Below, piece after piece: positions 2,848 through 29,443 of a DNA stretch of 64,000 nucleotides. The stretch spans positions 194,986 to 258,985 of the forward strand of contig NZ_QUNI01000006.1 in the NCBI RefSeq assembly GCF_003385115.1, read 5' to 3'. Each line of letters begins with the position of its first letter. Within the stretch, counting starts at the first letter, position 1. The notes beneath the pieces are model-generated. The model was not told the DNA's origin and searched no databases. It saw nothing but the letters and a program-made list of their open reading frames with translations. The translations under genes were made by a program, and so were the position numbers. The DNA is from Flavobacterium aquicola (lineage in GTDB: Bacteria; Bacteroidota; Bacteroidia; Flavobacteriales; Flavobacteriaceae).

Positions 2848-3429
2848 TTAAGATTTTTCGTTTAATGTTATTCTGCTTCTGATACGGCTTAAACTTTCGG
2901 GCTTTACGCCTAAATAACTGGCGATGTGTTTTAGAGAAACTCTTTCCACCACTTTGGGACGGTATTTTATTAATGCCAAATAACGTTCCTCGGGATTTAA
3001 CAATGTCATGGACATTCCTTTTCCTGTAAGTCCTTTGATTGTTCGCTCCATCATCTCACGCAAAAAATCATTAAAGACAGGATATTGATTTACTAATTTG
3101 TCAAAATCATCTTTGTAAGCTAAATATAATTCACAGTCTTCAAGTGCTTCTATATTAATCTTTGAAGGTTTTCCGTATAAAAAGCTTTCAAAATCTGAAT
3201 ACCATCCATTTTCAAAGAAAAAATTACCTGTTGCTTCTACACCATCATTTAAATAATAGTGTCTGATACAGCCTTTTTGAATAAAAACACCAAAATTACA
3301 AAACTCTCCTTCTACTAAAAGATGCTCCCCTTTTTTGAGTTTTTTAAATTTTAAAATACTTCCAAATGCGTTTCCTTCTTCTTCGCTGAATTTTAAAAAT
3401 TCCGATAAATTTGAAATTACACTTTGCAT
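2848..3429 (-). CDS. Crp/Fnr-family transcriptional regulator
   Basis: This 193-residue protein has a cyclic-nucleotide-binding-like beta-roll (about residues 15-115, with KKGEHLLVEGEFCNFGVFIQKGCIRHYY) and a C-terminal winged helix (about 150-190, with LKHIASYLGVKPESLSRIRSR). The recognition helix contains the E-x-x-S-R pattern used by Crp/Fnr proteins to read TGA-type half sites. It lacks the N-terminal four-cysteine cluster of FNR, so it is not an oxygen sensor of that kind. It belongs to the large group of Crp-like regulators of the Bacteroidetes with unknown ligands. Whether it reads the FNR-like dyads of the denitrification promoters in this window cannot be told. It is divergent in role from neighbours and stands alone. 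Confidence 0.82.
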   Translation of the reverse strand: MQSVISNLSEFLKFSEEEGNAFGSILKFKKLKKGEHLLVEGEFCNFGVFIQKGCIRHYYLNDGVEATGNFFFENGWYSDFESFLYGKPSKINIEALEDCELYLAYKDDFDKLVNQYPVFNDFLREMMERTIKGLTGKGMSMTLLNPEERYLALIKYRPKVVERVSLKHIASYLGVKPESLSRIRSRITLNEKS

Positions 3430-3557
3430 ACGTTACTAATTTTGAAAGAAAAATGCTAAGTTAATTAAAACAATCGGATTTATTATTACACAGCAGATAT
3501 TCAACAAATTAAACACAAAAACTAAAAAAAATATGTGCTAATTATTTCTCGAACTGT

Positions 3558-4262
3558 TTAAAAAGTAATAAACTCTGCTTCGAATAATTGGGAGAAATGC
3601 TTTAAGATTTTGGCTTTCACTTCGGCTTCATTCACTTTTTCAACACCAAGTTCTACATTAAGTGAAGTAACCGCTTTTCCTCGAATACCACATGGAATAA
3701 TATTGTCGAAATATCCCAAATCGGCATTGACGTTAAGGGCAAATCCGTGCATCGTTACCCAGCGTGACGCACGAACGCCCATTGCGCATATTTTGCGCGC
3801 AAATGGTGTACCAGCACCAAGCCAGACTCCAGTTTCTCCGTCGCTGCGGCCACATTCAATTCCATATTCCTGTAAAGTAAGAATAATGGCTTCTTCAAGA
3901 AAACGCAGGTATTTATGAATGTCTGAGAAAAAGTTTTCCAGATCCAGAATAGGATAACCCACAATCTGCCCGGGACCGTGATAAGTAATATCACCGCCAC
4001 GATTAATTTTGTAGAAAGTAGCTCCCTTGGCTTCTAACTGTTTTTCGGATAAAAGAAGATTGCTGAAGTCGCCGCTTTTCCCTAGAGTATAAACGTGAGG
4101 ATGCTCCACAAACAAAAAATAATTGGGAGTTTCAAGAGTGGTTTCTTCCCTCCTGTTCTGAATTTTCAAATCGACAATTCCCTTGAAAAGTTCTTCTTGG
4201 TATGCCCAAGTTTCCTGATAATCTTTATTTCCTAAATCTTGAAGCTGAATTTTTTTATTCAT
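3558..4262 (-). CDS. lipB: Octanoyl-[acyl-carrier-protein]:protein N-octanoyltransferase
   Basis: LipB transfers octanoate from acyl carrier protein to the lipoyl domains of 2-oxoacid dehydrogenases and GcvH, the first step of lipoate synthesis in the cytoplasm. The 234-residue protein has the family motifs in order: HPHVYTLGKSGD, NRGGDITYHGPGQIVGYPI, the lysine segment ARKICAMGVRASRWVTMHGFALNV, and the catalytic-cysteine segment IIPCGIRGKAVTSL near residue 190. Length is normal for the family. A good promoter (TTG, 18 bp, TACATTTG) lies at 4317-4345 on the minus strand. Confidence 0.95.
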   Translation of the reverse strand: MNKKIQLQDLGNKDYQETWAYQEELFKGIVDLKIQNRREETTLETPNYFLFVEHPHVYTLGKSGDFSNLLLSEKQLEAKGATFYKINRGGDITYHGPGQIVGYPILDLENFFSDIHKYLRFLEEAIILTLQEYGIECGRSDGETGVWLGAGTPFARKICAMGVRASRWVTMHGFALNVNADLGYFDNIIPCGIRGKAVTSLNVELGVEKVNEAEVKAKILKHFSQLFEAEFITF

Positions 4263-4316
4263 TTTTTGAAACCACTAAATTTCTTAGATTTTGAGATTCT
4301 AAGAATTGTTTTTTTG

Positions 4317-4345
4317 CAAATGTACGAATGTTTAACTCATCCCAA
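4317..4345 (-). promoter_or_regulatory. lipB promoter (TTG-N18-TACATTTG)
   Basis: On the minus strand TACATTTG (4317-4324) matches the TAnnTTTG -7 consensus of Bacteroidetes. A TTG (4343-4345) lies 18 bp upstream as a -33 element. The start codon follows 54 bp downstream. Confidence 0.6.
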
Positions 4346-4377
4346 CCCGTTTTGGAAACCTGTCAAGATAATTCATT

Positions 4378-5118
4378 TTAATCCAAAGCTTCTGGTTCTA
4401 AAATTACTTCCAGATTTGTACTGATTGGATTTTGCAGAAAATCTGACAACAGAAATTGCAGTGACAGCGATTTATGGTCATCACTAATTTTAGCAAGAGG
4501 ATTGGAAACCGACTGAATCTTTCGGGGAAAATGGTAATTCAAGACATAATTCTGAACCAGTTTATAACCTTTATAGTCGGCTTTTATTTTTTCAATCTTA
4601 TCGAATTCTTTTTTTTGTTCCAATGTATCCGTAACTGTGACGATGCGATGAAAACGATTGCCATTATAATCGTAGCAGACATTATAATAATGTTCTTCGG
4701 CACTTAATGCATAATTATATTTGATGTCGCCCAAATAATGATCGGTTTTGGAAAAATCCACAATATCAGTAGCATTGCTAAAATTCTGAGTATAAATGGT
4801 TCGGAATTCCTTATCATAAGAACTTGCTCTTTTATGAATTTTCACATCTGAATACCTTAAAAAAACTTTTTGGTCAGCAACAGGAGTTCTGGAAAAAGTT
4901 TCATGATGCTTCTTAATGTAATCTCCAAAAACATAAGTTGTGTCTTTGTAGACATCTTCCTTTGAATAGTTTTCTTTAGCAATCTGCATATAACTATTTT
5001 CATCCCTTAGCATATCAACTTCAATAGTTCCGCTCCCATCAGGATTGAGATGAAGCGTTTCTGTAACTTGACAGCTTATGATTAAAAATGGCATGAGCAA
5101 TAAGAAAACTTTTTTCAT
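4378..5118 (-). CDS. Predicted lipoprotein of unknown function
   Basis: The 246-residue protein begins MKKVFLLLMPFLIISCQ, a lipoprotein signal with the lipobox cysteine at residue 16, so it should be anchored in a membrane facing the periplasm. Right after it comes VTETLHLNPDGSGTIEVDM, a beta-hairpin pattern often seen at the start of Bacteroidetes lipoproteins of unknown role. The remainder is soluble, with no catalytic motif that can be recognised. It lies between lipB and lysS on opposite sides and does not appear to be in an operon. Confidence 0.75.
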   Translation of the reverse strand: MKKVFLLLMPFLIISCQVTETLHLNPDGSGTIEVDMLRDENSYMQIAKENYSKEDVYKDTTYVFGDYIKKHHETFSRTPVADQKVFLRYSDVKIHKRASSYDKEFRTIYTQNFSNATDIVDFSKTDHYLGDIKYNYALSAEEHYYNVCYDYNGNRFHRIVTVTDTLEQKKEFDKIEKIKADYKGYKLVQNYVLNYHFPRKIQSVSNPLAKISDDHKSLSLQFLLSDFLQNPISTNLEVILEPEALD

Positions 5119-5276
5119 TTGACTGAATAATATTGTTACCCTAAAAACTACAATTATTGAAAATCGAAGTTAATTAGTTTTCTTACAGCTGCAATTATTG
5201 TTTTTAAATAATTAACATTTTCATTCTTTTAATTATTTCTCTAGCAGAGAACTTATGAAAACAAAAGTTGTAAAAT

Positions 5277-5403
5277 AGCCCCGATAGAAGCGAAAATCTC
5301 CCGATTTAGAAAAACAAGGCTTTTTTGCCGTAGTTTTTCTAAATCGGGAATTGCCGTGGATAGCGGGAGAAATGTTCTTGAAAACACCCAAATTTTGTGC
5401 TCC
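5277..5403 (+). repeat. Variable-hairpin intergenic repeat, copy 1
   Basis: The element starts AGCCCCGATAGAAGCGAAAATC and ends TTTTGTGCTCC, in pieces AGCCCCGAT, AGAAGCGAAAATC and GTGCTCC. Between lies a long hairpin, CCCGATTTAGAAAAAC pairing with GTTTTTCTAAATCGGG, then GGATAGCGGGAG. The flanks match copies at 14019-14121, 54709-54810 and 60737-60838, while the stem is unrelated in sequence. Confidence 0.8.
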
Positions 5404-5446
5404 AAAAAATCTAAAATCTGCTTTCTGAAATCTGCAATCAATTTGT

Positions 5447-5454
5447 TATCTTTG
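5447..5454 (+). promoter_or_regulatory. lysS -7 element (TATCTTTG)
   Basis: TATCTTTG matches TAnnTTTG and lies 22 bp before the lysS ATG. This leaves a short leader. Confidence 0.6.
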
Positions 5455-5476
5455 CGGACTTAAAAATCAGAACATA

Positions 5477-7177
5477 ATGGCCTTATCAGAACAAGAAATC
5501 ATCCGAAGAGAGAAACTTCAATCATTACGCAATTTGGGAATCAATCCTTATCCTGCCAATCTTTTTCCAGTAAATCATACTTCGAAGCAGATAAAGGAAT
5601 CTTTTGAAGAAGGTAAAAAGGTGATTGTTGCCGGACGTTTGATGAGTGTTCGTGATCAAGGAAAAGCTTGTTTTGCTGAGCTGCAGGATAGCGAAGGGCG
5701 TATTCAATTGTACGTGAACCGCGATGTTTTGTGTGAGGGCGATGATAAAACTTTATATAACCAAGTATTCAAAAAATTAACCGATTTGGGTGATTTTATT
5801 GGTATTGAAGGTGAATTGTTTACTACACAAGTTGGTGCAAAATGTATTCGTGTGAGCGGTTTTACTTTCTTGAGTAAAACATTGCGTCCGCTGCCATTGC
5901 CAAAAGTAGATGAAGACGGAAAAGTACACGACGCTTTTAACGACGCCGAATTGCGTTACAGAATGCGTTATGTGGATTTAACAGTGAACCAACACGTTAA
6001 AGATACTTTTATTAAACGTACCAAGCTTTTTAGTGCTATGCGTAACTATTTTAATGATGCAGGATATCTAGAAGTGGACACTCCGGTTTTGCAATCCATT
6101 CCTGGTGGTGCTTCGGCGAGACCTTTTATTACGCATCATAATTCGCTTGACATTCCGCTTTACATGCGTATTGCGAATGAATTATACTTGAAAAGATTAA
6201 TTGTTGGTGGATTTGAAGGTGTTTATGAGTTTTCCAGAAACTTCCGTAATGAAGGAATGGACAGAACGCATAATCCTGAATTTACCGCAATGGAAATATA
6301 TGTAGCTTACAAAGACTACAACTGGATGATGGAATTTGCTGAAGGTTTGCTTGAGCATTGTGCAATTGCTGTAAACGGAACAAGTGAAGTTACTTTTGGT
6401 GAACATCAAATCAACTTTAAAGCGCCTTATGCTCGTGTTACAATGACCGATTCTATCAAGCATTTTACTGGTTTTGATATTTCTGGTAAGACAGAAGAAG
6501 AGTTGTTTGAAGCAGCAAAAGGAATGGGAATTGAGGTTGACAACACAATGGGTAAAGGAAAATTGATTGATGAGATTTTCGGCGCAAAATGCGAAGGAAA
6601 TTATATTCAGCCAACTTTCATTACTGATTATCCGAAAGAAATGTCTCCACTTTGTAAGGAGCACCGTGATAATCCGGATTTGACAGAGCGTTTTGAATTA
6701 ATGGTTTGTGGAAAAGAAATCGCAAATGCATATTCTGAATTGAATGATCCGATTGATCAAAGAGAGCGTTTTGAAGATCAAATGCGTTTGGCAGCAAAAG
6801 GTGATGACGAAGCAAACGGAATTATCGATGAGGATTTCTTAAGAGCGCTTGAATATGGTATGCCTCCAACTTCTGGAATGGGAATTGGAATGGACCGTTT
6901 GATTATGTATTTGACTAACAATGCTTCTATTCAGGAGGTTTTATTGTTCCCGCAAATGCGTCCGGAGAAAAAACAGACCGTTGAATTATCAGACGAAGAG
7001 AAATTTATCGTTGATTTATTGAAAGGAAATGAAAATAAAATGGATCTTCAGCAGCTAAAAATTACTGCGAATTTAAGCGGTAAAAAATGGGATGCGTCTA
7101 TGAAAAATTTATCTAAACACGGTTTGACAAAAGTTGCCGTTGAAGGTGAATTTAAATTTGTGGAATTGGTGGAGTAA
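5477..7177 (+). CDS. lysS: Lysyl-tRNA synthetase, class II
   Basis: LysS charges tRNA-Lys with lysine in the cytoplasm. The 566-residue protein has the N-terminal OB-fold (about 55-150, VIVAGRLMSVRDQGKACFAELQD) and the class II catalytic core. Motif 2 is visible as FRNEGMDRTHNPEFTAMEIY and motif 3 as GMGIGMDRLIMYLTN. About 65 residues follow motif 3 and form an acidic, helical C-terminal extension (ELSDEEKFIVDLLKGNENKMD onward) beyond the usual length of about 500. I believe such extensions are common in Bacteroidetes LysRS, but the role is unknown. A rho-independent terminator follows at 7201-7231. Confidence 0.96.
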   Translation: MALSEQEIIRREKLQSLRNLGINPYPANLFPVNHTSKQIKESFEEGKKVIVAGRLMSVRDQGKACFAELQDSEGRIQLYVNRDVLCEGDDKTLYNQVFKKLTDLGDFIGIEGELFTTQVGAKCIRVSGFTFLSKTLRPLPLPKVDEDGKVHDAFNDAELRYRMRYVDLTVNQHVKDTFIKRTKLFSAMRNYFNDAGYLEVDTPVLQSIPGGASARPFITHHNSLDIPLYMRIANELYLKRLIVGGFEGVYEFSRNFRNEGMDRTHNPEFTAMEIYVAYKDYNWMMEFAEGLLEHCAIAVNGTSEVTFGEHQINFKAPYARVTMTDSIKHFTGFDISGKTEEELFEAAKGMGIEVDNTMGKGKLIDEIFGAKCEGNYIQPTFITDYPKEMSPLCKEHRDNPDLTERFELMVCGKEIANAYSELNDPIDQRERFEDQMRLAAKGDDEANGIIDEDFLRALEYGMPPTSGMGIGMDRLIMYLTNNASIQEVLLFPQMRPEKKQTVELSDEEKFIVDLLKGNENKMDLQQLKITANLSGKKWDASMKNLSKHGLTKVAVEGEFKFVELVE

Positions 7178-21144: not shown

Positions 21145-22479
21145 TTACTTAGTTTCTAAAGCTTCATCCGTTGGTCTCCCGTATTTTATGAAATCATAGA
21201 TGAACATGCAGATTCCGGTGGCGAACATCGTTGCGCAGATCAGTAATACTACGAAGTGAATGCTGATTTCGTTCTGCACGACCATAAATTCCATTTTCAT
21301 TTTTCGCTCCAAATATACCTGTACGACTCCAGCAACTCCAAAGGCGACCGTCATTCCCAGCATCCCAACATTTGATAGCCAAAAAGCGGCCATTCCAGTT
21401 GCGCTTTGGTATCTTTTACGTCCGGTTAAATTCGGTAATGCGTAACTGATTATTGCCAAAACAATCATTGCATAAGCGCCCCAGAAAGCGTAGTGTCCGT
21501 GCATTGCGGTTACCAAAGTTCCGTGTGTGTAAAGGTTTGTCTGTGGTAAAGTGTGTGCAAAACCTAGTAATCCAGCTCCAACAAACGATACTATTGAAGA
21601 ACCGATTGTCCAGAATAAGGCAATTTTGTTCGGGTGGCTTTTTTCACCTTTGCGGTACATATTTACTGCAAACAATGCCATTCCCAAGAAAGCCAACGGC
21701 TCCAAGGCTGAGAAAATTCCGCCCACGATTAACCAAATTTTGTTCACTCCGATGTAGTAATAATGGTGTCCTGTTCCCAATACTCCCGAAAGAAATGTTA
21801 AACCAACGATTACGTACAGCCATTTTTCGATAACTTCGCGGTCAACACCCGTCAATTTGATTAATAAATAGGAAAGAATACCTCCCATAATTAGCTCCCA
21901 AACACCTTCAACCCACAAGTGAACTACCCACCAACGGAAGAAGGAATCCATCACCTGACTGTCGAACCAAATCATTCCTGGCAGATACAATAAAGCTGCG
22001 AATAACAATCCCATTGTCAATACCAGTGCAGTTGTAGTTTTGCGTTTTCCTTTGAAAAGTGTTCCCAGAATCAATCCTAAAAACAGCAATACATTGACAA
22101 CAACCAAGAAATCTAATTCTCTCGGAATTTCTAGAAATTTTCTTCCTTCCCAATGGTTCAGGTGAAATCCAACGATGGCAATTACGCCAACAACGGCAAG
22201 GGAAATTAATTGTACATACGCCCATTTTACACTAATCAGTTCGCGCTGTGCTTCTTCGGGGATAATGTAATATGCGGCTCCCATGAAACCAGTCAACAAC
22301 CAAACCACCAATAAATTAGTATGAACCGCACGGGCTACGTTAAAAGGGATAATATCATGCAGTCCTTGAACCCCGATTCGGTCAAAGCCCATAATAAAGC
22401 CATAGACAATCTGCAGTGAGAACAACAGCATACAGAGTGCAAAAAACCAGTAGGCTACTTTTTGTGATTTATATTTCAT
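21145..22479 (-). CDS. norB: Nitric-oxide reductase large subunit (cytochrome b)
   Basis: NorB reduces two NO to N2O in the cytoplasmic membrane using electrons from NorC. The 444-residue protein has about 12 helices. The heme and Fe-B ligand segments are visible: ARAVHTNLLVVW (heme), GTGHHYYYIGVNK (Fe-B histidines), ALEPLAFLGMALF with the conserved glutamate, and TAMHGHYAFWGAYAMI (heme ligands). Length and order fit a cNOR-type NorB, not the fused quinol enzyme. It starts 15 bp after norC and shares its promoter. Confidence 0.96.
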   Translation of the reverse strand: MKYKSQKVAYWFFALCMLLFSLQIVYGFIMGFDRIGVQGLHDIIPFNVARAVHTNLLVVWLLTGFMGAAYYIIPEEAQRELISVKWAYVQLISLAVVGVIAIVGFHLNHWEGRKFLEIPRELDFLVVVNVLLFLGLILGTLFKGKRKTTTALVLTMGLLFAALLYLPGMIWFDSQVMDSFFRWWVVHLWVEGVWELIMGGILSYLLIKLTGVDREVIEKWLYVIVGLTFLSGVLGTGHHYYYIGVNKIWLIVGGIFSALEPLAFLGMALFAVNMYRKGEKSHPNKIALFWTIGSSIVSFVGAGLLGFAHTLPQTNLYTHGTLVTAMHGHYAFWGAYAMIVLAIISYALPNLTGRKRYQSATGMAAFWLSNVGMLGMTVAFGVAGVVQVYLERKMKMEFMVVQNEISIHFVVLLICATMFATGICMFIYDFIKYGRPTDEALETK

Positions 22480-22494
22480 CTTCTTATATTTTAA

Positions 22495-22926
22495 TTATTC
22501 ATCTTTAGATAATGGAGAAACCACTCGGTCAAACCCGTTCAAATCGATTTTTCCAATCCATTTGAGGTACGCTACAACAGCATCGGCATCTTTTTCATTC
22601 ATATTATAGACTACCATTTTTCGTCCGTTTGGCGCCCAAGGCACAGGTGACATCAGTACGGCCTTAACGTAACCCTCACCTCTGCGGTCGATAACTTTTG
22701 TCAATTCCGGTGCATAATAGCCTCCTTCACCCATAATGGTATGGCACCCCATACAATTGTTGTGTTCCCAAATTTCTTTTCCTCTTACGACCTGTTTGTC
22801 AATCGCCTTGTAATTTGTCTGATCATTTCTGGGCATAAACGAATAAATGGTCAATCCGATAAAGATTAAAAAGGTGACCAATGTTCCTCCCAGAAAAAAT
22901 GCCCGTGCTTGTGATTTTGAAAGCAT
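22495..22926 (-). CDS. norC: Nitric-oxide reductase small subunit, cytochrome c
   Basis: NorC passes electrons from periplasmic carriers to NorB. The 143-residue protein has an N-terminal membrane anchor (about 8-30, ARAFFLGGTLVTFLIFIGL) and one heme c site NNCMGCHTIMGEGG near residue 60. The heme methionine is probably in VLMSPVPWAP or MVVYNMN. Length is normal. The promoter region upstream has two palindromes and an FNR-like dyad (22967-23041). Confidence 0.96.
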   Translation of the reverse strand: MLSKSQARAFFLGGTLVTFLIFIGLTIYSFMPRNDQTNYKAIDKQVVRGKEIWEHNNCMGCHTIMGEGGYYAPELTKVIDRRGEGYVKAVLMSPVPWAPNGRKMVVYNMNEKDADAVVAYLKWIGKIDLNGFDRVVSPLSKDE

Positions 22927-23359: not shown

Positions 23360-24091
23360 ATGGAAACTTTAGAAAAAATTACAATAGGTGAATATGTAGC
23401 AAAAGATTTTAGAACTGCAGCTTTATTTTCAAAATACGGCATCGATTTTTGCTGTAACGGCAACAGAAGTGTTGAAGAAGCATGTGAAAAAAAATCAGTT
23501 AATCCTGATGATTTATTGAAAGAAATTGAAACTATTTTGTCTCGAAAAAGTGATTCGGGAATTGATTTTAATTCTTGGCCAATTGATTTATTAGCGGATT
23601 ATATTGAGAAAACACATCATCGTTATGTGTCAGAAAAAACACCAACACTTCTTCAATTTTTAGACAAACTGAGCAGAGTGCACGGAGCAAATCATCCTGA
23701 ATTATTGGAAATAAATGAACTCTTTAAAGGATGCGCAGGAGAATTGGCACAGCACATGAAAAAAGAAGAACTGATTCTGTTTCCTTTTGTCAAAAAAATG
23801 GTTCGTGCCACTATTTCTGATGAATTAATTGAACAGCCACATTTTGGAACTGTTGAAAATCCAATCGCAATGATGATGCACGAACATGATGCTGAAGGAG
23901 AACGTTTTAGAAAAATAGCATCACTAAGCAACGATTATACACCGCCATCTGACGCATGTAATACTTATAAAGTAACATTTGCCATGTTACAGGAATTTGA
24001 ACAGGATCTGCACAAACACATCCATTTGGAAAACAACATTTTATTCCCAAAAGCAGCTAAACTCGAAAAGGAATTTTCGGCACAATCATAA
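23360..24091 (+). CDS. ric: Iron-sulfur cluster repair di-iron protein (RIC/YtfE/ScdA)
   Basis: RIC proteins repair iron-sulfur clusters damaged by NO and oxidants. The 243-residue protein has the ScdA N-terminal domain (about 5-60: IGEYVAKDFRTAALFSKYGIDFCCNGNRSVEEACEKK) and a hemerythrin-like four-helix domain with the di-iron ligands in YIEKTHHRYV, HMKKEELILFPF, MMMHEHDAEGERFR and DLHKHIHLENNILFPK. The CC pair in the first domain is conserved. The gene is divergent from norC and 3 bp before nrdD, with which it is probably cotranscribed and coupled. Confidence 0.95.
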   Translation: METLEKITIGEYVAKDFRTAALFSKYGIDFCCNGNRSVEEACEKKSVNPDDLLKEIETILSRKSDSGIDFNSWPIDLLADYIEKTHHRYVSEKTPTLLQFLDKLSRVHGANHPELLEINELFKGCAGELAQHMKKEELILFPFVKKMVRATISDELIEQPHFGTVENPIAMMMHEHDAEGERFRKIASLSNDYTPPSDACNTYKVTFAMLQEFEQDLHKHIHLENNILFPKAAKLEKEFSAQS

Positions 24092-24094
24092 ACT

Positions 24095-26230
24095 ATGTCA
24101 AACACTAAAAAATCAACAACTATGGAGAACTATGTAATAAAGAGAAATGGTAAATACAAGCCATTTGAGAGTTATAAAATTAAAGATGCCATTGAAAAAA
24201 GTTTCAAAAGCGTCTCTGCAGTTGTTGATGAAAGTGTTTTTGAAAATATTATTATTCAGCTCGAAGCTGAAGAAGTCTGGACTGTTGAGGAAATACAAGA
24301 CATGATTGAAAAGAAATTATACGAAAAGAAATACTTTGATGTCATGCGTTCTTTCATGCTCTTCCGTCACACGAGGAAGTTACAGCGCGAACATGTACAG
24401 GGATTGAATGATGACACTACTTATGTGGACAGTTCTCAGACAATAGAGGAATACATTGAACAGACCGATTGGCGAATCAATGCCAACGCGAATACTTCGT
24501 ATTCCAATGCGGGTTTGGTTAACAATGTTGCGGGAAAAATTATTGCCAATTATTGGCTTGACAAAGTTTATACCAAGGAAGAAGGCTATGCGCACCGCAA
24601 CGGTGATATTCACATTCATGATTTGGATTGCCTTACGGGCTATTGTGCTGGCTGGAGTTTACGTGTACTGCTCAACGAAGGTTTTAACGGCGTAAGAGGC
24701 CGTGTAGAAAGCAAACCTCCATCCCATTTTAGAGAGGCATTGGGGCAAATGGCGAATTTCCTTGGGATTTTGCAGAGCGAATGGGCTGGAGCGCAGGCTT
24801 TCAGTTCGTTTGACACGTATTTGGCTCCTTATGTTTTCAAAGATAATTTGGGTTTTGAAGATGTTTTAAAAGCGGTCAGAGGTTTTGTTTACAATCTGAA
24901 TGTTCCCGCGCGCTGGGGGCAGTCGCCTTTTACCAACATCACTTTGGACTGGATCGTTCCTGATGATTTAAAAGTACAGATTCCTACCAAAAATGACCAT
25001 CATATCTTTGAAGAATGCATTACTTCTGACTTATTGGTCAGAGCCAAAAAAAGGGGTGTGTCCAAAGTAACCGACTTACGTTATGAGCATTTCCAGAAAG
25101 AAATGAATCTCATCAACAAGGCGTATTACACCGTAATGACCGAAGGCGATGCCAATGGACAGCCATTCACCTTCCCTATTCCAACGGTGAATATTACCGA
25201 GGCATTTGACTGGGATGGAGAAAACACCGATTTGCTTTTTGAAAATACCGCCAAAATAGGTTCTTCCTATTTCCAGAATTTCATCGGAAGCCAATATGTT
25301 TTAGATGAAAACGGAAACCAAATTGAAAATGAGAATGCCTACAAACCCAATGCTGTCCGCAGTATGTGCTGTCGCCTGCAATTGGATTTGCGGGAATTAT
25401 TGAAACGCGGTAACGGACTTTTTGGAAGTGCCGAAATGACTGGAAGCATTGGCGTAGTAACCATCAACATGGCGCGTTTGGGTTACTTGAACAAAGGAAA
25501 TAAAGGGAAATTATACACCGAATTGGATCATCTTTTATATATCGCCAAATCGACTTTGGAGAAAAAAAGGGTATTTATCCAAGAGATGTACGACCGAGGA
25601 TTGTACCCGTACACTAAACGTTACTTGGAACATTTCAGAAACCACTTTTCGACCATCGGCGTGAACGGAATGAACGAAATGATTGAAAATTTCAGTAATG
25701 ACGAAGACAATGTAACATCTGAAACGGGTATTGAATTTGCTTCTGAAATTCTGGATCACATTCGCAACCGAATGAAAGAATTCCAAGAAGAAACCGGAAA
25801 TCTATACAATCTTGAAGCCACTCCCGCCGAAGGAACGACCTACCGTTTTGCTAAAGAAGACAAAAAACGTTATGACGACATTATTCAGGCAGGACAACAG
25901 GACAATATTTATTACACGAATAGTTCCCAAATTCCTGTGGATTTCACACAAGATCCTTTCGAAGCCTTGATGCTACAGGATCAACTGCAGTGCAAATACA
26001 CCGGAGGAACGGTTTTGCACCTGTACATGAGCGAAAAAATAAGCTCCCCCGAAGCCTGCAAGCAGTTTGTCAAAAAGGTGATTACCAATTTCAGATTGCC
26101 GTACATTACCGTAACGCCAGTGTTTAGTGTATGTCCCGTACATGGTTATCTGAACGGCGAACATGAATATTGTCCAAAATGTGATGAAGCCATCATTGAG
26201 GAAAAAGCGAAAAGCAACTATGTTTCTTAA
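24095..26230 (+). CDS. nrdD: Anaerobic ribonucleoside-triphosphate reductase, large part lacking the glycyl-radical domain
   Basis: NrdD makes deoxyribonucleotides without oxygen. The start at 24095 lies 3 bp after ric; a second ATG at 24122 (MENYVIKRNGKYKPFE) is also possible. The 711-residue protein has an ATP-cone (about 10-105) and the NrdD core (HIHDLDCLTGYCAGWSLRVLL, NITLDWIVPDD, NMARLGYLNKGNKGK). It ends with a zinc-type motif CPVHGYLNGEHEYCPKCDEAII and a stop 11 residues later. Normally RVxGY follows here with the radical glycine. That domain is found as a separate ORF at 26352-26519. A repeat begins at the stop codon. Confidence 0.93.
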   Translation: MSNTKKSTTMENYVIKRNGKYKPFESYKIKDAIEKSFKSVSAVVDESVFENIIIQLEAEEVWTVEEIQDMIEKKLYEKKYFDVMRSFMLFRHTRKLQREHVQGLNDDTTYVDSSQTIEEYIEQTDWRINANANTSYSNAGLVNNVAGKIIANYWLDKVYTKEEGYAHRNGDIHIHDLDCLTGYCAGWSLRVLLNEGFNGVRGRVESKPPSHFREALGQMANFLGILQSEWAGAQAFSSFDTYLAPYVFKDNLGFEDVLKAVRGFVYNLNVPARWGQSPFTNITLDWIVPDDLKVQIPTKNDHHIFEECITSDLLVRAKKRGVSKVTDLRYEHFQKEMNLINKAYYTVMTEGDANGQPFTFPIPTVNITEAFDWDGENTDLLFENTAKIGSSYFQNFIGSQYVLDENGNQIENENAYKPNAVRSMCCRLQLDLRELLKRGNGLFGSAEMTGSIGVVTINMARLGYLNKGNKGKLYTELDHLLYIAKSTLEKKRVFIQEMYDRGLYPYTKRYLEHFRNHFSTIGVNGMNEMIENFSNDEDNVTSETGIEFASEILDHIRNRMKEFQEETGNLYNLEATPAEGTTYRFAKEDKKRYDDIIQAGQQDNIYYTNSSQIPVDFTQDPFEALMLQDQLQCKYTGGTVLHLYMSEKISSPEACKQFVKKVITNFRLPYITVTPVFSVCPVHGYLNGEHEYCPKCDEAIIEEKAKSNYVS

Positions 26231-26306
26231 CCGCAAAGGGCACAAAGGAAGCGCAATGAACGCAAAGCTTTGCGCCCTTTGCGTAATCCCTTGCGAACCT
26301 TGCGGT
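26230..26306. repeat. Imperfect palindrome ACCGCAAAGG...CCTTGCGGT between the two nrdD parts
   Basis: It starts AACCGCAAAGGGCACAAAG and ends GCGAACCTTGCGGT, with CGCAAAGCTTTGCG in the middle. The borders are inverted copies. A related element is at 55870-55947. It begins at the last base of the nrdD stop codon. Confidence 0.75.
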
Positions 26307-26351
26307 AAATCTTAAACAATTTAAACTCTTAAACATTTAAACCAATTTTAT

Positions 26352-26519
26352 ATGAAAATAACAGCCAAGCAGATTCTAGAAGAAAATCAAGAACTACGCA
26401 CTAAATGCTTAGTGTACACACGAGTAATGGGCTATCACAGACCCGTAGAAAGTTTTAACATAGGAAAAAAAGGTGAACACAGACAACGAACTCATTTTAC
26501 AGAAGGAAAGTGCTGTTAG
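26352..26519 (+). CDS. Free-standing glycyl-radical domain of NrdD (55 residues)
   Basis: This 55-codon ORF has ATG at 26352 and TAG at 26517. It encodes MKITAKQILEENQELRTKC followed by LVYTRVMGYHRPVESFN and IGKKGEHRQRTHF. RVMGYHRPVESFN-x-GK is the glycyl-radical motif at the very C-terminus of anaerobic ribonucleotide reductases, and Gly27 would carry the radical. It is in a different frame from the large part, 121 bp downstream with stops between, so it is not a simple frameshift. It overlaps the start of nrdG by 47 bp. It should act with the 711-residue part as a two-piece enzyme, like GrcA supplying a radical domain to pyruvate formate-lyase. The pairing is inferred. Confidence 0.88.
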   Translation: MKITAKQILEENQELRTKCLVYTRVMGYHRPVESFNIGKKGEHRQRTHFTEGKCC

Positions 26520-27189
26520 GCCCATTTACAGCTTAACACCTTTCACTTTATTGGATTATCCGCACAAATCAGCTTGCATTCTTTGGTTTGCAGGCTGTAA
26601 TATGCGGTGTCTTTATTGCTACAATCCCGAAATTGTTTTTGGAAAAGGAATTATTTCATTCGAAAATGCAATCCAATTTTTAAAAAACAGAAGAAATCTG
26701 CTGGACGCTGTCGTCTTTAGCGGTGGCGAATGTTTACTGCACAAAAGAAGCGTCGCCTTCATTGAAGATGTCAAGAACATGGGATTCTTGGTCAAAATCG
26801 ATACCAACGGCTCTCAGCCCAAAATACTCAAAGAACTCATCGATAAAAAATTTGTCGATTATATTGCGCTTGATTTCAAGGCAATGCCTGAAAACTTTGA
26901 AAAGATAACACAGTCAGATCTTTTTATTCCTTTCGAAAAGTCACTACTTTTATTGCTTGAGAGCAAAGTTTCGTTTGAAGTCCGCACAACGGTACATTCC
27001 GATTTATTGAAGAAAAACGACATTCAGCAGATGATTTCCTATTTGGAAAACATCGGTTATTCCGGAAATTACTATATTCAGCATTTTAGGAATGAAGCGC
27101 CAACGATTGAAAAACTAGGGCATTCGTTTAGGGATTTGGAAAACGAAAACCTTTCAACAGAAAAAATCAAAGTGCATTTTAGAGGATAA
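26473..27189 (+). CDS. nrdG: Anaerobic RNR activating protein, radical SAM
   Basis: NrdG uses S-adenosylmethionine and a 4Fe-4S cluster to form the glycyl radical on NrdD. The radical SAM motif is visible as AGCNMRCLYCYNPE (CxxxCxxC) near residue 45, preceded by LTPFTLLDYPHKSACILWFAG and followed by VVFSGGECLLH. The best start is GTG at 26473, since no ATG exists before the motif. It overlaps the 55-residue ORF by 47 bp, which suggests translational coupling. The 238-residue length is a little long for NrdG but normal for this PflA-like subgroup. Confidence 0.92.
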   Translation: MNTDNELILQKESAVRPIYSLTPFTLLDYPHKSACILWFAGCNMRCLYCYNPEIVFGKGIISFENAIQFLKNRRNLLDAVVFSGGECLLHKRSVAFIEDVKNMGFLVKIDTNGSQPKILKELIDKKFVDYIALDFKAMPENFEKITQSDLFIPFEKSLLLLLESKVSFEVRTTVHSDLLKKNDIQQMISYLENIGYSGNYYIQHFRNEAPTIEKLGHSFRDLENENLSTEKIKVHFRG

Positions 27190-27244
27190 TCCCTAAAACA
27201 AATGCATTATTTTTATAATGCCGAAATGCTTAAATTTTAATCAA

Positions 27245-27709
27245 ATGAAATCAACTACACCCATAAAAAGAGCCCCTGAATTAAAGCCGTTTAGTCACGA
27301 TCATCATCATGCTTTGCTTCTTTGTTGGAAAATTAAAACAGGAATCGCAAAAAATATCGAACTGCAACGCATCAAGGAATATACTGATTGGTTTTATAAA
27401 AATCATCTTCAAGAGCATTTTGAATTGGAAGAAAAATACATTTTTTCTATTCTAGATGCAGATAATGAACTCATTCAGCAAGCATTGAAAGAACACAAAC
27501 GTTTGAGAGATTTATTCGAAAGCACTTCAGATTTGGATACCAATTTAAAATGTATTGAGAAAGAACTTGAAGCTCATATTCGTTTTGAAGAACGTATTTT
27601 ATTTGCTGAAATTCAAAAATCGGCCACAAAAGAACAATTGGAAACAATTGAAGAAGTTCATTCCAAAGACGCTTTTGTAGAAAATGAAAGTGCTAATTTT
27701 TGGAACTAA
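27245..27709 (+). CDS. Hemerythrin-like domain protein
   Basis: The ATG at 27245 is chosen (MKSTTPIKRAPELKPFSHDHHH). The 154-residue protein has the HHE ligand pattern: FSHDHHHALLLCWK, HLQEHFELEEKYIF, LKEHKRLRDLF and EAHIRFEERILFAEI. It should fold as a four-helix bundle with a di-iron site. Such proteins bind O2 or NO or buffer iron. It stands in the block with ric, nrdD and nrdG, 55 bp after nrdG. Confidence 0.88.
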   Translation: MKSTTPIKRAPELKPFSHDHHHALLLCWKIKTGIAKNIELQRIKEYTDWFYKNHLQEHFELEEKYIFSILDADNELIQQALKEHKRLRDLFESTSDLDTNLKCIEKELEAHIRFEERILFAEIQKSATKEQLETIEEVHSKDAFVENESANFWN

Positions 27710-28213: not shown

Positions 28214-29443
28214 ATGAAGAAGAGTTGGTTGCTCTGTACTTTTGCTAACTTTTTCATTGCTTCGCTAATGGGATTATTGTTGCGATGGATGTATGTTGCC
28301 CCAATTGAAGGCGTCAATTTTCAGTTTTTGATGCACGGGCATTCGCATGTTGCAATGCTGGGATGGGTGTATATGATGCTTTATTGCCTGATATTTTACT
28401 CTTTTATCCCCGAAAAAGCTCAAGAAAAACCCATTTACAACAAATTGTTTTGGGTGACGGAAATCGCAGTAATCGGGATGATGATTGATTTTCCAGCGCA
28501 GGGATATGCCTTTGCTTCGATCCTTTTCTCGACTTTGCACATTTTTTGCAGTTACTGGTTCTGTTATTTGGTTTGGAAAGATGCCAAACCCACCACTTTG
28601 CCTGAAAAAAAGATGCTGAAAACCGCTTTGTTTTTCATGCTTTTATCCACCGTTGGTGTTTGGTGTCTAGGCCCTGCGGTTGGATTGTTGGGAAAAGCAA
28701 GTGCGTTCTATCAAATTGCGATTCAGTTTTTCCTTCATTTTCAGTTTAACGGTTGGTTTTTATTTGCGGTTTTGGCTTTGTTTTTCAAGCAGGCAAAACT
28801 CACTTTTGATGTTAAAAAATTCAGCTTAATTTATAATTTATTCGTCTGTTCTACGGTATTGACATTGGCCTTGCCAGTGAGCTGGTATTTGTCCAATCCT
28901 ATTTTTCATTGGATAAACGCAATTGGCGTTGTGTTACAGTTGGTTTCGGCGGTACTTTTTATTCAGGTCGTCAAATCACAATTGCAAACGTTCTTTTCCA
29001 ATCTTTCTGCTTTGGTAAAAACCGTTTACGGATTTGCCTTGTTTTCATTGGTTTTAAAAATCATCATTCAGCTGGTGGTTTTGGTTCCTGAACTGGCGCA
29101 GGTATCCCATCAGATTCGGAATTTTGTGATTGGTTATATTCACTTGACAATGTTGGGAATTATTACTGGTTTTTTGTTTGGATTTGCCTTTCAAAATAGT
29201 TTTTTAAACCCGAAAAGTTTTATTCAAAAATGGGGAATGAATCTATTTCTGCTCGGATTTGTGGCAACTGAAATATTACTGTTTCTCCAAGGCATTTGGC
29301 TATTCCTGAACAAAGGATCGCTTCCTAATTATTATCTAAATTTATTTTTAGTGAGTATCTTTTTGCCCGTGGGACTTTTGTTTCTGACAATCGGTATTTT
29401 AAAAATAAAAATCAACCATATAAGGCATTTAAGTTCCATATAA
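28214..29443 (+). CDS. Multi-pass membrane protein, distantly like heme-copper oxidase subunit I
   Basis: The 409-residue protein has about 11-12 hydrophobic helices. Several carry histidines set as in oxidase/NorB-like subunits: MHGHSHVAMLGWVYMMLY, STLHIFCSYWFCYLV, QIAIQFFLHFQFNGWFLF and GYIHLTMLGIITGFLFG. This recalls the HGH-x-x-V-x-G pattern of helix II in NorB and cbb3 oxidases. It lacks the HH pair expected for CuB or Fe-B, so it is probably not a full oxidase. The place after the NO-defence genes suggests a role in NO handling or heme/copper assembly. The function is not known. Confidence 0.65.
   Translation: MKKSWLLCTFANFFIASLMGLLLRWMYVAPIEGVNFQFLMHGHSHVAMLGWVYMMLYCLIFYSFIPEKAQEKPIYNKLFWVTEIAVIGMMIDFPAQGYAFASILFSTLHIFCSYWFCYLVWKDAKPTTLPEKKMLKTALFFMLLSTVGVWCLGPAVGLLGKASAFYQIAIQFFLHFQFNGWFLFAVLALFFKQAKLTFDVKKFSLIYNLFVCSTVLTLALPVSWYLSNPIFHWINAIGVVLQLVSAVLFIQVVKSQLQTFFSNLSALVKTVYGFALFSLVLKIIIQLVVLVPELAQVSHQIRNFVIGYIHLTMLGIITGFLFGFAFQNSFLNPKSFIQKWGMNLFLLGFVATEILLFLQGIWLFLNKGSLPNYYLNLFLVSIFLPVGLLFLTIGILKIKINHIRHLSSI

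Follow-up and report, generated by a model that had tools for sequence, protein, structure and literature searches.

Can a class III ribonucleotide reductase (RNR) work when the glycine that holds its radical is encoded by a gene of its own? The question is raised by nucleotides 24095-26519 of a 64,000-nucleotide stretch of the Flavobacterium aquicola genome (assembly GCF_003385115.1, contig NZ_QUNI01000006.1, positions 194,986 to 258,985; referred to here as the window), where nrdD stops short of the glycyl-radical domain (GRD) and a 55-codon gene encoding such a domain follows, overlapped in turn by nrdG. Judged on sequence, the two parts are separately encoded, each is conserved, and they are kept together with nrdG. 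The evidence assembled below argues, with a probability of roughly 0.88, for a working two-polypeptide class III RNR made up of a large NrdD, a separate GRD protein and NrdG.

A class III RNR encoded in two parts

The catalytic (large) part of nrdD occupies 24095-26230 on the forward strand as an open reading frame (ORF) of 711 codons, and translation probably begins at position 24122 with an ATG (MENYVIKRNG), as in relatives; the length of 711 residues given in the initial annotation thus holds for the ORF as listed, but the protein would have 702. An ATP-cone domain covers residues 13-95 (24131-24379; PF03477, E 8.4e-18). The finger-loop motif SMCCR, the expected site of the thiyl radical, was read in the sequence at 25361-25375; the R-S-M-C-C-R columns are invariant across six aligned rows, and the role of the finger loop in NrdD is taken from the accessible text of PMC9669993. 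The zinc motif CPVHGYLNGEHEYCPKC, likewise read in the sequence, lies at 26132-26182, and the chain ends in ...CPVHGYLNGEHEYCPKC-DEAIIEEKAKSNYVS*, which leaves 15 residues after the last zinc cysteine rather than the 11 first counted. PF13597 (NRDD) matches the large protein over profile positions 2-529 of 562 (E 1e-163) and NF006126/PRK08270 over 3-653 of 684 (1078 bits), without a GRD.

The GRD gene (26352-26519, forward strand) begins with its own ATG 121 bp after nrdD and in a different frame, and its 55-residue product contains RVMGYHRPVESFNIGKKGE with the radical Gly27 (codon 26430-26432). It matches PF13597 at 532-562 (E 1.4e-6, 27.7 bits against a cut-off of 26.2) and PRK08270 at 649-682 of 684, the latter far under that model's whole-protein cut-off. 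The large and small NRDD matches abut end to end on the profile, so the pairing goes beyond chance, and the initial description of an NrdD without its GRD beside a short ORF carrying the missing motif proved right in its coordinates. The pyruvate formate-lyase (PFL)-type Gly_radical domain of GrcA/YfiD is a Pfam family of its own; it is not found in the 55-residue protein, whose Pfam matches at E 0.01 or better are to NRDD alone. The radical S-adenosylmethionine activase gene nrdG2 (26473-27189, forward strand; TIGR02495, 195.6 bits against a cut-off of 131.15) overlaps the GRD gene by 47 bp and has an inferred GTG start, both as first described. The window therefore holds the NRDD barrel, the finger-loop cysteine and the NrdG activase of a class III RNR; the GRD normally sought at the C-terminus of the same chain is absent from NrdD and supplied by the separate ORF.

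In the proposed mechanism, the large NrdD would contribute the ATP-cone, barrel, finger-loop cysteines and zinc site recognised in its sequence, and the radical glycine would be provided by the separately encoded protein of about 50-60 residues. This protein would bind the large part non-covalently, in the place of the C-terminal domain of a one-piece NrdD, an arrangement that the read-through model described below supports. NrdG would load the radical onto the GRD glycine, with the piece bound or free, and the radical would then move to the finger-loop cysteine as in known NrdDs. Because the large part is without its own GRD and the genome has no other NrdD, the piece would be obligate. A possible gain in facultative denitrifiers would be the replacement of a piece after cleavage by oxygen or quenching by nitric oxide (NO), with no need to rebuild the 700-residue enzyme.

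Conservation in the genome and among relatives

A whole-genome NRDD profile search returned two matches in total, the large and small ORFs of the window, and no second NrdD with its own radical domain; a single further RNR large chain in the genome belongs to the class I/II family. In a first sample NRDD was present in 10 of 40 genomes (own included), with two matches in each. A same-genus sample gave matches in 109 of 299 genomes (own included), and the large matches listed all end at or before profile position 543, and at 528 or beyond unless they are fragments; three genomes (G061, G236 and G313) have one NRDD match each among those listed. No fused NrdD was seen among these same-genus large matches. 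The two findings that the initial annotation had named as damaging to its reading, another complete NrdD in this species and a fused gene in close relatives, were thus not encountered in the genome and among the listed matches, respectively. Two cases in this same-genus sample stand apart: for G225 four NRDD matches are listed, two of them to large NrdDs, which would make two split loci, and a single-contig genome has an NrdD match with three in-frame TGA codons (G285:C1:1141918-1143621), either a pseudogene or a sequencing error.

Beyond the genus, the family sample had matches in 32 of 299 genomes, comprising five split-kind large chains (G000, G075, G343, G407 and G609), 24 fused chains of another type and three fragments or weak matches, and the phylum sample had matches in 26 of 392 genomes (10 split, 15 fused and one weak piece). 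In a quick tree of 58 Bacteroidota large chains, a fully supported branch parts the 47 split rows from the 11 fused rows. Codon analysis of the GRD core (102 distinct DNA cores encoding 16 distinct core proteins; 5151 pairs) gave a ratio of nonsynonymous to synonymous differences (pN/pS) of 0.043, with a median pS of 0.796 and pN of 0.034; the GRD gene is under strong purifying selection.

Spread among bacteria and plasmids

A search through 84,980 genomes, one per species, gave 551 GRD relatives, of which the best 80 were examined. Every one of these is a separate small ORF; the sources include Sphingobacterium, Parapedobacter, Mariniradius, Cyclobacterium, Arthrospiribacter, Flavobacterium and a metagenome-assembled genome of Chitinophagaceae. 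An ORF with the NrdD zinc motif lies upstream in 78 of these named loci, the exceptions being L161 and L200 (near contig start), and NrdG follows directly 3' of the GRD in 76 by a motif test. With the GRD start placed at the last Met that precedes the motif by 12 residues or more, the GRD gene overlaps the end of nrdD by 4-26 bp in 56 of the 78 loci and is separated from it by 1-345 bp in the other 22.

Plasmids carry the same arrangement, with a GRD in 28 records and a large chain in 30. The GRD match lies downstream of the large match in 22 of the 28 (eight inspected, the others judged by coordinates), four are fused (Acidiphilium multivorum, Acidithiobacillus and Actinomyces oris from their annotation, Acidiphilium cryptum from its label only), and two, both from Allochromatium, have a GRD in a record where the search turned up no large chain. 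Plasmids of Cupriavidus necator, Bradyrhizobium, Sulfuricurvum, Azospira and Shinella are annotated with the pair as two genes. On pHG1 of C. necator H16, a 676-residue large chain is accompanied by a 66-residue GRD, with an NrdG overlap of 17 bp, and in this strain (also A. eutrophus) nrdDG was reported as essential for denitrification in the accessible text of PMC2864759. For metallidurans, NrdDG is given as Rmet_5137 and Rmet_5139, and the skipped number would be the GRD gene. As read from these gene pairs, the split form occurs in Bacteroidota, Pseudomonadota (known from plasmid records) and Campylobacterota.

A wider quick tree of 22 split and eight fused rows, with 5 of 27 inner branches starred, requires three changes, and the fused chains of Acidiphilium, Acidithiobacillus and A. 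oris fall on its mostly split side; splitting and joining may therefore both have happened.

Several further loci were recorded during this survey. A conjugative plasmid, pAZI09 of Azospira sp. I09 (L300), has class I RNR alpha and beta genes flanking a split class III set. On a B. japonicum plasmid (NZ_CP126016.1, 48270-51612) an ISRj2-family transposase is annotated beneath an nrdD match that falls into two pieces. A separate 94-residue ORF with a GTG start lies directly 5' of nrdG3 in one genome that has a complete, fused NrdD besides (L427:1038-1767, G822:C7; with L410), and it matches NRDD at 489-560 and TIGR02827 at 521-596 of 596; this ORF may be the remnant of a lost nrdD or a YfiD-like spare part repeating the enzyme's end.

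Radical domains in viruses

Scanning IMG/VR for the GRD returned 129 relatives, and DNA was fetched for the best 80. By profile search of the ORFs in the fetched DNA, an NrdD chain was present in L226 alone. The motif begins within 200 residues of the frame start in 79 of the 80 loci, the exception (L265) being a long frame without an NrdD match. Of these records, 46, picked by hand mostly for length and possibly themselves fragments, were searched whole: 45 had an NRDD match and 44 of these had no NrdD chain (G1216, among those without one, has a further weak 27-position match, and G1225 fell under the threshold). Twenty neighbour proteins from eight virus loci were scanned with PHROGs; four loci gave DNA polymerase, clamp loader, helicase, replication initiation, endolysin and integrase families, a fifth gave a polynucleotide-kinase family, and the remaining neighbours matched families of unknown function, a MazG-like family weakly, or nothing. 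Six lone GRDs all matched phrog_4132 ('unknown function') in its last third (E 8e-10 to 2e-5), and four of them gave weaker matches to the phage NrdD family phrog_487 (E 0.1 or better). A third family, phrog_16066, matched one GRD weakly (E 0.14) and was dropped.

Virus NrdD loci were also collected (best 80 of 150), and a script called 61 fused, 15 split and four without a GRD. Reading of the junctions gave 16 split loci: L330, whose gene is interrupted but keeps its domain, was removed, and L341 and L356 were added; L345 and L370, near contig ends, were not assigned to either class. Gene order varies among the split loci. In L324 the order is GRD (NRDD 527-562), NrdG2 (above its cut-off) and an NrdD that ends at profile position 527 and holds one in-frame stop. 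In L354 the GRD (530-562) lies upstream of an NrdD (2953-6039) that ends at 528 and has a LAGLIDADG, intein-like insert, and in L356 an HNH/NUMOD4 endonuclease ORF (4211-4579) stands between nrdD and its separate GRD gene. By eye, 16 virus NrdDs (L321, L325, L326, L328, L331, L334-L336, L339, L340, L343, L344, L348-L350 and L353) have a thioredoxin/glutaredoxin-like stretch (CPNC-type motif, QAPTL) C-terminal to the GRD. In ANMV-1, a virus of archaea, a 144-residue ORF that carries the annotation anaerobic RNR (L293:7680-8114) has a radical domain and zinc-like cysteines, and no NrdD is annotated within the stretch fetched.

It is possible that the lone virus GRDs are RNR counterparts of the phage spare part for PFL. 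A broader proposal, to which we would give an even chance, is that free GRDs of the NRDD type form a mobile, trans-acting radical family: in many facultative denitrifiers an obligate and exchangeable class III RNR subunit, and alone on phages and plasmids a means to keep or restart the host's anaerobic synthesis of DNA precursors, as T4 does for PFL. Among named phage genomes (50,697 records), no GRD was found with the window's protein as query and two records were found with one virus-type GRD query; lone GRDs thus come almost solely from metagenomic virus contigs, which counts against the phage reading.

Predicted fold

The trans arrangement was approached through a chain read across the junction of L203 (TGA as Trp), whose large part is 89% identical to that of the window, with 74 aligned rows including fused virus NrdDs. 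The model has a mean predicted local distance difference test (pLDDT) of 85.4 and a predicted template modelling score (pTM) of 0.80, and the GRD blocks (residues 721-770) average 80-92. In VIA-align comparisons it aligned with Prevotella copri 8p2s_B over model residues 85-769 (Z 34.1, root-mean-square deviation (rmsd) 2.5, 553 aligned), with Thermotoga maritima 4u3e_B over 94-773 (Z 32.4, rmsd 2.7, 531 aligned) and with phage T4 1h7b over 125-753 (Z 32.5, rmsd 2.5, 478 aligned); PFL-type enzymes ranked next at Z of about 18. The model glycine is residue 746, within all three spans. The model thus supports a GRD placed where solved NrdDs have it, and suggests what docking in trans would look like.

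Several points weigh against reading the split pair as a working enzyme on this basis. The model is a single tethered chain and its alignment includes fused virus NrdDs; docking is partly built in, since the tether and the fused rows favour it. The finger-loop stretch (417-437) has a pLDDT below 50, and the aligned ranges state first and last residues only. Several P. copri rows and one T. maritima row stop at model residue 665-666, before the GRD; some structural rows have an rmsd above 6, and those of S. thermophilus reach 9-16. A first model, from a shallow alignment, had a pLDDT of 58 and was too poor for use. On the genetic side, the genes deleted in a 1999 Journal of Bacteriology study of A. 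eutrophus H16 were reportedly nrdD and nrdG, rather than the small gene itself.

Neighbouring genes

Directly 5' of nrdD lies a gene for an iron-sulfur cluster repair di-iron protein (RIC/YtfE; 23360-24091, forward strand; TIGR03652, 249.7 bits against a cut-off of 204.7), and a hemerythrin-domain protein (27218-27709, forward strand; PF01814) is encoded downstream. On the reverse strand (21145-22926), a COX1-family protein (21145-22479; PF00115) and a cytochrome c (22495-22926; PF00034) may represent NorB and NorC. RIC, nor-like genes, hemerythrin and an Rrf2 regulator around the pair, both in the window and in C. necator, suggest exposure to NO and oxygen. A dispersed repeat (26228-26316, forward strand) includes the NrdD stop codon and occupies most of the nrdD-GRD gap; it has 31 matches in its own genome, a count that includes the window's copy itself and second hits to the same copies on the opposite strand. 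Insertion of a repeat at this site would be tolerated if nrdD and the GRD gene are independent. Further downstream, a 409-residue protein (28214-29443) has no Pfam match at E 1e-4; it also occurs near 22 of the 80 split named loci and near none of the 20 fused ones.

Why the radical domain is separate

One explanation for the separate domain, to which we give a little short of even odds, is that the split was a neutral accident fixed in an ancestor and confers no advantage. The fused chains of Acidiphilium, Acidithiobacillus and Actinomyces oris are close to split ones in sequence, so both forms presumably work. A mere accident sits less easily with the persistence of the split over phyla, with the several different arrangements in viruses and with the occurrence of the GRD alone.

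Another explanation, which we consider slightly less likely than not, is that the piece is separate because it is replaceable, with selection for quick exchange of GRDs cut by oxygen or hit by NO, in the manner of GrcA/YfiD; an oxygen-damaged piece would then be exchanged. RIC lies within about 5 kb of 51 of the 80 split named loci and of none of 20 fused Bacteroidota loci, and the loci of the window and of C. necator share RIC/YtfE, a nor-type gene, hemerythrin and Rrf2. The GRDs that stand alone in virus contigs and on two plasmids point the same way, and the accessible text of PMC8683613 states that other glycyl radical enzymes may have spare parts. However, when any of five NO-related neighbours is counted, the difference is not significant (60 of 80 split against 11 of 20 fused loci, Fisher p 0.10), and Rrf2 is, if anything, commoner near fused loci (7 of 20 against 23 of 80 split). 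All these counts ignore kinship, and 17 of the 20 fused loci represent another NrdD type. Moreover, no complete-NrdD genome in the family and phylum samples has an additional GRD of this type, the 94-residue ORF of G822 being a longer zinc-plus-GRD piece of another type.

That programmed frameshifting or stop readthrough joins the ORFs into an ordinary one-chain NrdD is very improbable. It would fit the overlap of 4-26 bp seen in 56 of the 78 named loci, the three virus loci whose ORFs share a frame with one TAG between them (L359, L362 and, by coordinates, L361), and four loci whose ORFs share a frame with a single TGA (L203, L204, L190 and L030). In the window itself it is already contradicted by the 121-bp gap, which has stops in all three frames. 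Elsewhere gaps reach 345 bp in named loci (631 bp in L049 by its first ATG), and eight same-frame pairs have 3-8 stops. The HNH ORF intervenes in L356, and the GRD gene precedes nrdD in L324 (GRD, nrdG, nrdD) and L354 (GRD, nrdD); no recoding can append to the end of NrdD a domain that is encoded upstream of it. Recoding was rejected on the stop-filled gaps and these virus loci, which therefore argue that the domain acts in trans. Finally, recent gene damage or an assembly error leaving a dead locus, to which the repeat in the gap might point, is scarcely credible and was rejected, given the same split in the same-genus NrdDs listed (some from single-contig genomes), the pN/pS of 0.043 and the single clade of Bacteroidota split forms in the quick tree. 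The two-polypeptide RNR with a GRD supplied in trans, as the initial annotation had proposed, thus draws support from selection on the GRD, gaps and gene orders, conservation in three bacterial phyla and the predicted fold.

Significance and comparison with known systems

The genes are already listed in public records, both pieces being annotated, and no account of the pair was found. In the accessible text of PMC9669993, PMC9531940, PMC3019208, PMC11226230, PMC8463856, PMC4493059, PMC4390871, PMC12288474 and PMC12662201, a set that mentions split class II RNR and eukaryote NrdD-NrdG fusions, there is no mention of a separately encoded NrdD radical domain, and in PMC9669993 the class III radical domain is described as the NrdD C-terminus. 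A literature search, with subscription literature mostly outside its reach, gave no account of a bacterial NrdD whose radical domain is encoded apart, nor of GRDs occurring alone in viruses. In the split pair the class III radical domain is a protein of its own, across large groups of environmental bacteria, and the pair provides a natural system for the study of radical-domain binding, activation and replacement, for which fused enzymes need truncations. A phage family so far lacking a function would gain a likely role: if the proposal made above for viruses is true, PHROG family 4132 ('unknown function') is an RNR radical spare part. The pair also carries a warning for annotation, as the small piece alone is labelled 'nrdD, anaerobic ribonucleoside-triphosphate reductase' on plasmid records.

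Solved class III NrdDs (P. copri 8p23/8p2s, T. maritima 4u3e, S. thermophilus 9d3x and phage T4 1h78) share the barrel, finger-loop cysteines, zinc site and NrdG partner, some have the ATP-cone, and the predicted position of the radical domain is alike; they differ in that the radical domain of the window is a separate gene product. The split class II RNR NrdJa/NrdJb, as described in the accessible text of PMC9669993, is also an RNR in two chains, but of class II. Interrupted phage nrdD genes likewise have more than one coding piece, which the available text of PMC3653736 attributes mostly to introns, inteins and homing endonucleases, with no free radical domain described there. The nearest likeness, drawn in the initial annotation, is to GrcA/YfiD and phage T4 Y06I (PMC8683613, accessible text), small separate glycyl-radical domains acting in trans, one of them phage-borne. 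That text presents the spare-part mechanism for PFL and leaves other glycyl radical enzymes as a question, to which the present pair is a candidate answer. The likeness holds for a small radical domain in trans but not for its role: GrcA backs up a complete enzyme, whereas the window piece is of the NRDD type and would be obligate in cell loci, with no complete NrdD to back up.

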